64,000 nucleotides of DNA from Dermatophagoides farinae (Eukaryota; Arthropoda; Arachnida; Sarcoptiformes; Pyroglyphidae): positions 1,426,001 through 1,490,000 of the forward strand of contig NC_134681.1 in NCBI RefSeq assembly GCF_024713945.1, written 5' to 3'. The translations under genes and the position numbers were made by a program. Below are positions 42,519-52,743 of the stretch, piece after piece. Below the pieces are notes generated by a model that ran no database searches, had not been told where the DNA came from, and worked only from the letters and a program-made list of their open reading frames with translations. Position 1 is the stretch's first letter. Every line of letters begins with the position of its first letter.

Positions 42519-42717
42519 CAGTAATACCCCGCTTAACGCTGCCCCGTTTAGCGCTGATTCGATATAACGCTGTACAATTACCCTACATTGCATTACATTG
42601 TTACATTGTATATGAAGGGTAAAAATGCATTATGTAAAGATAGCCCCGCTTAGCGCTGTTTCGCTTAACGCTCAGAATTTTTGGAACGTAACCCCCGCGT
42701 TAAGCGGGGTATTACTG
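42519..42717. mobile_element. 199-bp pogo/Tigger-type MITE
   Basis: The element starts with CAGTAATACCCCGCTTAACG and ends with its exact reverse complement; the perfect terminal inverted repeat is 21 bp. It is flanked on both sides by TA (42517-42518 and 42718-42719), as expected for a TA target-site duplication. Inside are further GCTTAACGCT and TTTAGCGCTG-like repeats, next to GTTTCGCTTAACGC, which resembles the termini of pogo/Tigger elements. It is too short to encode a transposase, so it must have been mobilised in trans. Its GC-rich content stands out sharply in this window. The perfect ends suggest a fairly young insertion. Confidence 0.85.
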
Positions 42718-43064: not shown

Positions 43065-43738
43065 ATGGCTGGAATCATATCGAAATTTTTCGTATTTATT
43101 GTTTCAATAATCGCTATGATCAATTTGATCAATAATAATGGTGGCAATGCTTCTGTTTTGGATTCGATTAAAAAATCCATTTCAAATGGTATCGATTCAG
43201 TATTGGAAGAAGTACAAGGTGCAGCTTGTTTGATACAAAATCGTGAAGATTTTGATGGCTGCCAGAATCAGATCAACTACTGGTATAGTAACATTGATGG
43301 CCAACGCGATAGAGTGAAGGTAATTATGATTTTTTGTTTTCATTTTTTGAATTTTATTTTGTTTTCCTTTTTTTTTGTTTGATATAAATAAATATATAGG
43401 AATACTGTTGTGCATTCATTTCTTATAAACAATGTCTCAATACTGTAGCACGTTTACGTTGTGGCTCAAAAGCACAAGAAACCGTTGATGGTATTATGAA
43501 TGCAATGAAAAAAGGTCTTTATCCAAGTGATTGTGATCCTTATGATAATATTGTCGATTGTATGGATCCATTGTTATTCTGGGCAATATGTATGTAGTGT
43601 TGATGTTAATGATAAATCAAATTTGGTTAATATTTTCCTCTCTTTTTTTTGTTTTGTTTTTTAGTTGCTCTTATTGTCGTGATTATTTTCATTCTTTTCT
43701 GTTCGCTAATTGGTTGTCTTAAACGAACATTTTGCTAA
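43065..43738 (+). CDS. Eight-cysteine single-pass membrane protein A
   Basis: Exons 43065-43319, 43400-43589 and 43665-43738 (introns phase 0 and phase 1, 80 and 75 bp) give 172 residues. An N-terminal signal peptide (KFFVFIVSIIAMINLINN, cleavage near residue 29) is followed by a small luminal or extracellular domain. It has eight Cys (55, 66, 88, 89, 97, 106, 130, 139), including C-x10-C and an adjacent CC pair. A C-terminal membrane helix (about 143-166, FWAIFALIVVIIFILFCSLI) and a short basic tail LKRTFC follow. I recognise no named family. The gene 1.3 kb downstream (45039-45848) has the same order of signal peptide, cysteines, introns and helix, so the two are tandem paralogues. Function is unknown; an outward-facing, disulfide-bonded ectodomain is inferred. 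Confidence 0.75.
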
Positions 43739-45038
43739 ACAACAAACAACGAATGAAAATTTCATCATTGATCGTCGCTTTTTTTTTAATCATATAATAA
43801 TAATGTCATTGAATTGATTGATTTTTGACATAGACAACACCCATACACGCACAAACAAAACAAAACAAACATTCTGATTCTCATTTTGTAATCAATGTAT
43901 AATATCATGTGATGTCCATTCCATTATTTTGAAACATTCTTTCATGTTTTTCGAGCTTTAAATACACACACACACACTAACACATAATTCAAAAAGTTTT
44001 TTTTTTTATTGTTTTCATATTCCAATTGTAACATTTTCTTTTGCATCATTATTATGCTGGTGCCAAAATTTTGATTTCATACTCTTTGTGGTTTGTTTTT
44101 TATTGTGATTCATTTCATCATCTTCATCTAGGACATTATACCCTTACAAAATACACGCACACAAAAACAATTTTGAAAAAAATGACCAAAAATTATCATC
44201 AAATTACTTAAAACCATTATAATTACATATATTGATATATTGATATTGATTTTCACATCCAATCATCACAGGCACCTTGGTGGAGACGTAATCTGTTACA
44301 ATAACAACAACAACAACAAAGCTTTTTTCTCACACAAACATACATACACACACACATTGATTAATTTCATGTGCCAACATCGTTTTTTTTTTATGAAAAC
44401 AAATATGTACAATGATCATTGTCATCAAACCATGGTCGTTTAAATTTATCATTTTCCAAGATTTTTAAATTTCACATTCATTCTGATTGACGATTTTCAT
44501 AAAAATTTTTTTTTTTCATTAATAATTTGTGTATTTGTAATTAATAATTGCTGCTCATTTATGATTATGATAAAAAAAAAATCTGAATAAAGATTTGAAA
44601 AAAAAATTCGTTGTCAATTGGCCAAAATTGATATGTGTGAATAGAAATAATAATATAGAAAATGTAAATATCAAAACGAAAAGAAAAATTTTTGAATTTT
44701 TTTTTATTTTTCCGCCATTATGGAATGGAAAATATTTATTTATTTTTTTCTGGCAGAAAATTTATGAGCCAATAATGATAATCATTAAATCGTGTGTGTG
44801 TGTGTGTGTGTGCGCGCGCGTTTTTTGTGGCGAATGGAAATTGACAAATTGATGATGAGATTTATTGGCTATTTTTCGATTTATCAAATGTATATGTGTG
44901 CTGTGTATATATTCATATTCATTTATATATAAAAACTGTACACACACGCAAAGATCAATTTTTTTTAAATTTACAACAACAACAAGAATATCCAAGACAA
45001 AAGAAAAGATCCGGGAATTCAAAAAAAAAAAAAACAAT
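43739..45038. other. Spacer between the two eight-cysteine genes
   Basis: Repeat-rich. A phrase at 44271-44303 (acceptor-like TCATCACAG, then codons for APWWRRNLLQ and a stop) could be a tiny alternative last exon but is unsupported. A GTGCGCGCGCG array lies at 44807-44820. Promoter elements for gene B should be here but are not identifiable. Confidence 0.5.
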
Positions 45039-45848
45039 ATGATGAAAATGATAACGAAATTTCCTATTACAATAACCATTTTAATCATCATCTTCATTGA
45101 CAATTATGGTAATGCTATTGATTTTGAATTATGGATATTGAATTCGACATTTAAAACAACAACAACAACAACGACAACAATTGCAACTAGTATCAATAAT
45201 AAAATGGCCAAAGATATGGATGATTGTTATAGAAAAAATTTACGACTTTTTAAACGTTGTGATTTAGATTTTGAAAATCATTTAGAAGATTATGATAATA
45301 TATTCAATGATGATATGATGATTGTTGTTGACAATGACAATTTATCCAATGATCAAATGCAGGTAAGAAGTATATGAAGATTGCAACAACAACAACAAAA
45401 AAAAATGTTTTTTTTCCAATTCTTTTAAAATTATATTTAATAATTCATAGAAAATTTGTTGCCAATTGATTGTACCATACCAAAAATGTTATAATAATAT
45501 TGCCATACGTAAAAATTGTAAACATAAATCAATTATTGATATACAAAAACATTTGGACGAATATTTATTACGAAAATATCCATTCATAAATTGTGTGAAT
45601 TATGACAATAATTCACATAATAATCATTGTTTTAATAAAATTTTATTCTGGTCATTAGGTAATTATCATTATCATTATTATATCATATATTCATCATATA
45701 TTTTCCTGTCACATGTACTGTTTGTTTGTTTGTTTTTTTGTTTTTTTTTAATATTCGTTTTCATTTCATAGTTGCTGTTTGCACAATAATCGGCATTATT
45801 GTCACTGGTATTGTATTCGGTTATTATCTATGGAATTTTATTTTGTAA
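45039..45848 (+). CDS. Eight-cysteine single-pass membrane protein B (paralogue of A)
   Basis: Exons 45039-45362, 45451-45658 and 45772-45848 (introns phase 0 and phase 1) give 202 residues. The signal peptide (FPITITILIIIFI, cleavage near residue 25) is followed by a poly-Thr stretch and an acidic linker. Eight Cys lie at 63, 74, 111, 112, 121, 131, 156 and 168, and the membrane helix lies at about 173-197 (ILFWSLVAVCTIIGIIVTGI). The C-x10-C, CC, YP...C..YDN...C and LFW motifs match protein A in order, and the second intron splits the same place just after LFW-x-x. Overall identity is low, so the duplication is old or evolution is fast. An in-frame upstream Met at 44865 exists, but its extension is repeat-derived. 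The Met at 45039 directly precedes the signal peptide; Met at 45042 or 45048 would serve equally. Confidence 0.7.
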
Positions 45849-51463: not shown

Positions 51464-52743
51464 TCAAGTTTTATTTATAAATTCTGGATTATATGGTGAT
51501 TGTCTATTGATTCCTGTTGTTGTTGTTGTTATTATTTGGCCATTATTATAATTTTCTTCATCGATTAATGATTGATTTTGTTGTTGTTGAGGTACATTTA
51601 TATTAATCGTATTGATCATATCATTATTATTATCATTTGTATTTGTAATAGCAATCGATTCATATGGTGGTGGTGGTTCCAACATTGGCATTGTTTGTTC
51701 ATCATTTATTGATCTTCTTATAGTTGCACCATTTCCGTTATTTTGATTATTATTATAATTATTAGATCTATTTGTAGTGGTAATAGTAGTATTCAATGAT
51801 GATGCCGGTGGACAACTAGGATCAGGATGATGTGCACGATGATAATTTGTAGAAGAAAGATGTTGATGCTGTTGTTGTTGATGGTATTTATCATTTTTTC
51901 TTCGAATACAAAAATAATATAAAATGACCAATATGAATGCCGATAAAATGACCAAAAATATTTTTATTATTATCGACGATAATGAAATACGTTGTGGTTC
52001 AGCTTCACCAAGACGTTCACTCCATTGACAACAGGTTGGATGTAATGTATTCGATTGACAACACCAGGATTTTATTCGTGATTCAAATAATCTTGGACAT
52101 TCGAATACTTCAATTTTTGAAGTATTTGGTAAAATTTGACGACATATTTCACCTTGTACCAGGCCTATATATATATATATATATATATATATTCATTTAT
52201 TTATATGTAGAATAATCAATCATGTGAATATGGAAAAAATTCAGGAAAAAAAATAGAAAAAAAATCAATATAAATTCATTCATCAAATTAAGGTCAAATG
52301 ATCATATGTTTTTTTTTTTTTTTTTTGATTGGCCTTGATTGGATGACCGGAACAACAACAATAAAAAAAAATGCAAAAGAAAAAATTGGATCAACTTACC
52401 AAATAAACATAATGTTGAAATGATGATGATAAACAATAGAAATGATAATGATGATGATGATGATGATGATGATGTATTTTGATTTTGATTCAATTTAGCT
52501 GTATTTGTTGTCAATGTTGATGATTTAATTTGTCTAATAATAATATTTAATCATCATCATCATCATCATCATTGTGATGATAATGATGATTATTATTATG
52601 ATTATTAACATCACAATACATTTTCGTTGTAAATTTTTGATCAATATATGGTCGATAATAGTAATAGTATGATGATGATGATGATGATGATGATGATCAG
52701 AATGTCTGTTTTTTAAACATTTTCTTATATTAATCATTGTCAT
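51464..52743 (-). CDS. Cysteine-rich single-pass membrane protein with PPxY tail
   Basis: Two exons are well supported: 52533-52400 and 52164-51464, joined in phase 1 (donor GTAAGT). The first encodes a hydrophobic signal (LSFLLFIIIISTLCLFG). The second encodes an ectodomain with EICRQI, FECPRLF, SWCCQSN and PTCCQW, a membrane helix (KIFLVILSAFILVILYYFCI) and a basic stop, IRRK. A low-complexity cytoplasmic tail follows with PPPPYES, a possible WW-domain ligand. Neither exon has an ATG before the signal. The best start is the Met at 52743 in a small His-rich exon (52743-52610) joined by a 76-bp phase-2 intron with a weak donor, GTTAAT; the total would be 322 residues. CC pairs, one helix and a PPxY tail recall Shisa or VOPP1-type adaptors, but I cannot assign the family. 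The acceptor of the last exon is formed by a (TA)n array. Confidence 0.65.
52166..52191. repeat. (TA)n microsatellite forming an intron end
   Basis: About 13 TA units that directly abut the last exon of the PPxY gene. On the minus strand they read ...TATATAG, supplying the AG acceptor. Confidence 0.9.

Follow-up and report, generated by a model that had tools for sequence, protein, structure and literature searches.

A tandem gene pair of Dermatophagoides farinae, putatively membrane-tethered, within a large DUF19-like family of cysteine-rich proteins

Two neighbouring genes of the mite Dermatophagoides farinae raise the question of what kind of protein they encode and whether they stand alone in the genome. 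They form a tandem pair on the plus strand at positions 43065-45848 of a stretch of 64,000 nucleotides (contig NC_134681.1, positions 1,426,001 to 1,490,000), hereafter the window, to which all coordinates refer. Gene 1 (43065-43738) starts with its ATG at 43065, and gene 2 (45039-45848) ends with the final base of its stop codon at 45848. Both gene models are complete, with predicted lengths of 172 and 202 amino acids, respectively; their splices and signal peptides were derived from reading the sequence (Table 1).

Table 1. Exons and introns of the two genes, in window coordinates
Feature	Position	Strand	Supporting observation
Gene 1 exon 1: signal-peptide-like start and C-x10-C portion of the module	43065..43319	+	sequence reading
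Gene 1 intron 1: phase 0, GT-AG, two codons ahead of CC	43320..43399	+	
Gene 1 exon 2: CC-x7-C-x8-C-x23-C-x8-C and LFW	43400..43589	+	rank 1 of 1647 window segments, pair-free profile
Gene 1 intron 2: phase 1, GT-AG	43590..43664	+	
Gene 1 exon 3: hydrophobic helix, short CLKRTFC tail, stop	43665..43738	+	maximum 19-residue hydropathy mean 3.29
Gene 2 exon 1: signal-peptide-like start, Thr-rich stretch, C-x10-C	45039..45362	+	
Gene 2 intron 1: phase 0, GT-AG, two codons ahead of CC	45363..45450	+	
Gene 2 exon 2: CC-x8-C-x9-C-x24-C-x11-C and LFW	45451..45658	+	rank 2 of 1647 window segments, pair-free profile
Gene 2 intron 2: phase 1, GT-AG	45659..45771	+	
Gene 2 exon 3: hydrophobic helix nearly reaching the C-terminus, stop	45772..45848	+	maximum 19-residue hydropathy mean 2.46

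The initial annotation had described the two as a homologous tandem pair sharing a signal peptide, eight cysteines in one order, two paired introns, a YP-C-YDN-C-LFW motif and a single C-terminal helix, and this layout was recovered in both genes. The cysteines are spaced C-x10-C-x21-CC-x7-C-x8-C-x23-C-x8-C in gene 1 and C-x10-C-x36-CC-x8-C-x9-C-x24-C-x11-C in gene 2, followed by one C-terminal hydrophobic helix; further cysteines (three in gene 1, one in gene 2) lie in or after the hydrophobic stretch. As judged by eye, each protein begins with a signal-peptide-like sequence, at the likely end of which both carry the residues GNA. The first intron interrupts the reading frame in phase 0 shortly before the CC pair (RVK/EYCC and QMQ/KICC, with the slash marking the junction) and the second in phase 1 at the onset of the C-terminal hydrophobic stretch, and all four introns are of the GT-AG type. 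The YP-C-YDN-C-LFW motif is found in both genes with slightly different spacing. Exon 2 is 32% identical between the genes, and a global alignment gave 47 identities in 168 aligned residues. Homology of the pair was supported by BLASTP of the full-length proteins (E = 1e-6 across 76 residues) and by the ranking with a profile built without the pair, described below. When bare modules were compared by BLASTP, gene 1 was not listed against gene 2; its best partner was a module from elsewhere in the genome (L012, 34% identity over 73 residues). Retention of gene 1 intron 2 would lead to an immediate stop (WAICM, 43590-43600), resulting in a form without the membrane helix.

The relationship of the pair to similar modules elsewhere in the genome was assessed using a profile of 21 other genomic modules, applied to 1647 six-frame segments of the window of at least 25 amino acids. 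Exon 2 of gene 1 ranked first (E 5.3e-6) and exon 2 of gene 2 second (E 0.0082); nothing else in the window resembled the module, the next segment having an E-value of 0.58. Scored as modules, gene 1 reached 33.7 bits and gene 2 21.1 bits, and in 1000 cysteine-preserving shuffles per gene none attained the real score (maxima 26.2 and 17.8 bits, respectively). In this test, 3 of the 23 modules, including that of gene 2, had been cut too long; the corrected cuts were used for the tree and the spacing analysis. An earlier profile of 12 copies likewise placed exon 2 of gene 1 first in the window (E 1.8e-7) and gave an E-value of 0.39 for the gene 2 exon; spliced gene 2 scored 10.5 bits with it, below the best of 500 cysteine-preserving shuffles (12.8 bits). 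Gene 2 matches the other members of the mite family weakly. The eight-cysteine order with CC-x7-C-x8-C is exact in gene 1, and each of these two gaps is one residue longer in gene 2 (x8, x9).

Frames upstream of the pair encode a pyridoxal-phosphate enzyme domain and a CBS domain, which we take to represent cystathionine beta-synthase, and downstream of it is an ABC transporter. Directly upstream of gene 1, the window contains an element of 199 bp (42519-42717) with perfect 21-bp terminal inverted repeats and TA flanks. Among 99 candidates, 40 copies including that of the window were scored, with 97-100% identity over about 200 bases, and three copies, the window copy among them, had the full score. 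The copies suggest that a non-autonomous DNA transposon, presumably of the pogo-like class, spread in a recent burst. On the minus strand, a frame at 51467-52192 has a CC...CC arrangement ahead of one hydrophobic stretch, and a PPPPY motif; its match to SARAF was weak (22.1 bits, cut-off 30.8 bits). Elsewhere in the genome, a group-2 allergen exon (L079) is identical to Der f 2 at 107 of 108 positions, which fits the assignment to D. farinae; L078 is a distant relative of group 2, and the exons L081 and L084 had no match in the PDB.

The view of the two genes as a family in themselves, as initially proposed, had to be given up, since the module, whole or partial, occurs at 39 other places in the genome. 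These emerged when the D. farinae genome was searched in six frames, the queries being the pair, five of its relatives and DUF19. Among 42 loci that were profiled, L028, L047 and L070 lacked a module match and were dropped, and L059 falls at the same place as L066. The count at E <=0.05 came to 39 distinct places, two with values above 0.01, the E-values referring to the 42 loci and not to the whole genome. The profile itself had been fed by 20 of these places (21 non-window rows in addition to gene 1 and gene 2); the other 19 are independent of it, 17 of them with E <=0.01. Two more listed places (E 0.0064 and 0.079) are outside the count of 39. The CC pair was present in the best frame at 25 places and the later part of the module alone at the remaining 14, where introns are probably the reason for frames without CC. 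In total, about 42 genes were seen including the pair, with one place (L040) holding two genes; as for any count of a large family here, this is a lower bound.

In an alignment of 21 modules (A3; 19 rows from outside the window), seven of the eight module cysteines were invariant and the eighth was present in at least 90% of rows. With L038 and L044, which were added later to the 19, the modules from outside the window number 21 and come from 20 places. Across the resulting 23 modules, the first two cysteines were spaced C-x(9-14)-C, with the exception of L014 (30 residues), and exactly C-x10-C in 12 modules. The distance from the second cysteine to the CC pair ranged from 19 to 65 residues. 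It was followed by CC-x7-C in 22 of the 23 modules, gene 2 having x8, and then by a gap of x8 in 18 (L014 being counted across an extra cysteine), by 18-26 residues and finally by 8-11 residues to the last cysteine. The final two cysteines often flank an aromatic residue, for instance in CSDYPERSLKC and CGDYTESTDRC, and the C-x2-YDN of the pair is one form of this arrangement. Because the same module is found in dozens of other proteins of D. farinae, the tandem pair would appear to have arisen by local duplication as a membrane-tethered branch within a large, DUF19-like mite family.

In gene 1, gene 2, L014, L027, L038, L039, L040 (two genes), L042, L044 and L046, the module leads closely into a stretch of strong hydrophobicity (mean above 2 over 19 residues). 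Outside the pair these are nine genes at 8 of the 39 places, in a count that covers the stretch directly after the module, the next exon being outside it. In L039, a tryptophan replaces the cysteine after CC, and its eight-cysteine count was established only from CC onward. The two genes of L040 (234-926 and 1237-1779 of that locus, on contig C1) are likewise membrane-type and arranged in tandem. In all nine genes the CC part and the helix share a single open frame, whereas in the pair the helix is on an exon of its own. As read by eye, L044 has an intron near CC in phase 0, one codon before the CC pair; that of L038 is in phase 1 and farther upstream. Longer relatives, for example L022, L033 and L012, have extra cysteines in front, and some end in a moderately hydrophobic tail. 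In seven longer relatives (L054, L055, L062, L067, L070, L072 and L074), the frame reads ...CW and then stops at the expected CC, as if an intron split the codon of the second cysteine, unlike the phase-0 intron of the pair.

A phylogenetic tree of 23 modules joined gene 1 and gene 2 with support of 95/83. The pair was placed weakly (78/90) with the longer type, and ten other membrane-labelled rows grouped together; among these, two rows (L043 and L045) owe their label to weaker hydropathy, 1.13 and 1.65 respectively, and the tree did not include L039. Because gene 2 and several others are on very long branches, the placement of the pair serves as a lead only. A tentative wider reading, to which we give rather less than even weight, is that mites possess an unrecognised family of about 40 DUF19-like surface and secreted proteins, in which the C-terminal part of the domain, standing alone, gave rise on more than one occasion to a membrane-anchored protein resembling a receptor.

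As to the proteins themselves, the combination of a signal peptide, cysteines and a single helix is most simply read as that of a type I surface protein. Judging from the predicted sequences, gene 1 and gene 2 probably encode small proteins of this type, which display a disulphide-stapled binding module and have almost no cytoplasmic tail; disulphides, fold, surface location and binding role are all inferred here. The signal peptide would place a compact, mainly helical domain on the outer face of the cell, where up to four disulphides could staple it, and the one C-terminal helix would anchor it in the membrane, leaving a cytoplasmic part of a few residues in gene 1 and of nearly none in gene 2. 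With so short a tail, signalling through the protein's own tail is unlikely, and it would act through what the outer domain binds. Most likely, this domain would present a surface for binding or adhesion on a fixed frame of cysteines, and the residues from the second cysteine to CC would be free to vary. The combination of a constant frame and a stretch before CC that varies from 19 to 65 residues is what a scaffold with a variable face would be expected to show. Structure prediction of the two second exons alone gave a poor model (mean pLDDT 55, pTM 0.33) containing helices only. Some relatives carrying the module are longer and may be secreted, or perhaps GPI-anchored. By analogy with the nematode DUF19 family, a role at a barrier surface such as gut or cuticle, or in a stress or immune response, may be guessed at.

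The C-terminal helix could instead be a cleaved GPI-attachment signal, so that one or both proteins would be lipid-anchored. Gene 2 ends almost within the hydrophobic stretch, which runs nearly to the last residue of the protein; this is compatible with such a signal, as are the moderately hydrophobic tails in which longer relatives such as L022 and L030 finish; the basic CLKRTFC that follows the helix in gene 1, however, fits a membrane-spanning segment better, and L027, L038, L042 and L044 have hydrophilic tails after the helix. On balance we consider lipid anchoring a possible but rather unlikely outcome. Decay or lack of expression of either duplicate, or of both, seems improbable. In its favour, the exon G+C content of gene 2 (0.248) is below the window mean of 0.29; against it, both genes retain all eight cysteines and intact splice sites, their frames are open through each of the three exons, and in gene 1 the exons are richer in G+C than the introns (0.341 versus 0.181).

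A different reading of the pair, as large loops of the tetraspanin kind or as some other known receptor containing a CC motif, can be given very little credence. Tetraspanins, which have four helices in all, resemble the pair in that their large extracellular loop carries CC and additional cysteines beside a membrane helix; in the pair, CC and the cysteines after it precede the helix. In addition, 1 of the 21 members of the alignment matched Tetraspanin (E = 0.56); the pair differs from the four-helix layout in its single C-terminal helix and signal-peptide-like start, and the match did not recur. The Pfam hits to Tetraspanin, RGM_N and ODV-E18 were rejected as isolated. A PDB search with a 14-row profile listed five distinct sequences at E <=10. 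Four were manganese peroxidases and the lowest E-value was 0.44, and these matches were taken to reflect chance.

More weight attaches to the question of whether the family shares ancestry with DUF19 (PF01579; Pfam cut-off 23.2 bits), presumably the same as the 'T20D4.11-like domain'. DUF19 was the recurrent nearest family and the sole Pfam family matched by more than one of the 21 aligned members. Matches at E <=1 were obtained for five of these (gene 1, L022, L030, L023 and L033), compared with none of 21 shuffles in which the cysteines were kept; outside the alignment, L013 and L052 also matched. All seven proteins matched the C-terminal part of DUF19, with starts at 81-95 and ends at 149-156 of 157 positions; for gene 1 (16.5 bits, below the cut-off) the match covered about positions 94-156. 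L033 scored 17.5 bits as a trimmed module and gave no match as a full frame. An origin of the mite modules by convergence on a DUF19-like cysteine pattern, with no descent in common with nematode DUF19, would account for the finding that no member exceeds the cut-off (best score 21.4 bits, L023) and that 16 of the 21 had no DUF19 match, namely gene 2 (none in Pfam at E <=10) and 15 of the 19 rows other than the pair. Pfam searches likewise gave no DUF19 match for L012, L014, L015, L027, L031, L032, L034, L051, L054, L056 and L060, and the search of the genome with DUF19 found three weak matches, none above the cut-off. Convergence is at odds with the recurrence of DUF19 alone among the members and its absence from the shuffles, and also with L022, which when spliced by eye matched positions 9-151 of the 157 (18.3 bits); we regard it as a serious alternative, if one that we doubt. 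The mite family is probably a distant relative of DUF19 and not a member of it, as far as comparison of sequences can tell.

Matches to DUF1397 (PF07165; cut-off 25.7 bits) were confined to the N-terminal half of spliced L022 (positions 137-201 of 207, E 0.0044, 16.8 bits) and, weakly, L060 (E 0.034, 13.9 bits), both below the cut-off; neither gene 1 nor gene 2 matched this family in Pfam. The initial characterisation of the proteins as apparently undescribed holds in so far as no scanned member passes a Pfam cut-off and no title on mites was found among the 10 papers containing the whole word DUF19, and has to be qualified by the recurrence of DUF19 as the nearest family. The rapid evolution that the initial annotation proposed would be a conceivable feature of the family, divergence among paralogues of a single genome giving no rate. 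A literature search on IPR002542 found no papers. As far as the pair alone is concerned, the finding is modest. Taken as a whole, some 40 divergent, cysteine-rich proteins at the surface or secreted, none over a Pfam cut-off, would make up a sizeable, poorly named part of the surface proteins and secretome of D. farinae, a major source of allergens, and could provide a bridge from mite proteins to nematode DUF19.

In Caenorhabditis elegans, 51 genes are reported to encode DUF19 proteins of 140-220 amino acids, 42 of them with a signal peptide and 14 up-regulated on infection (PMC3534327), and one such protein has been called a worm-specific Cys-rich secreted protein (PMC3527274). The nematode proteins are thus cysteine-rich, secreted and encoded by a large multigene family (PMC3534327, PMC3527274). 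The mite proteins appear to be like them in these respects. The tandem pair differs from DUF19 in carrying a C-terminal helix and in the extent of its similarity, gene 1 matching the C-terminal part of the domain only and gene 2 none of it.
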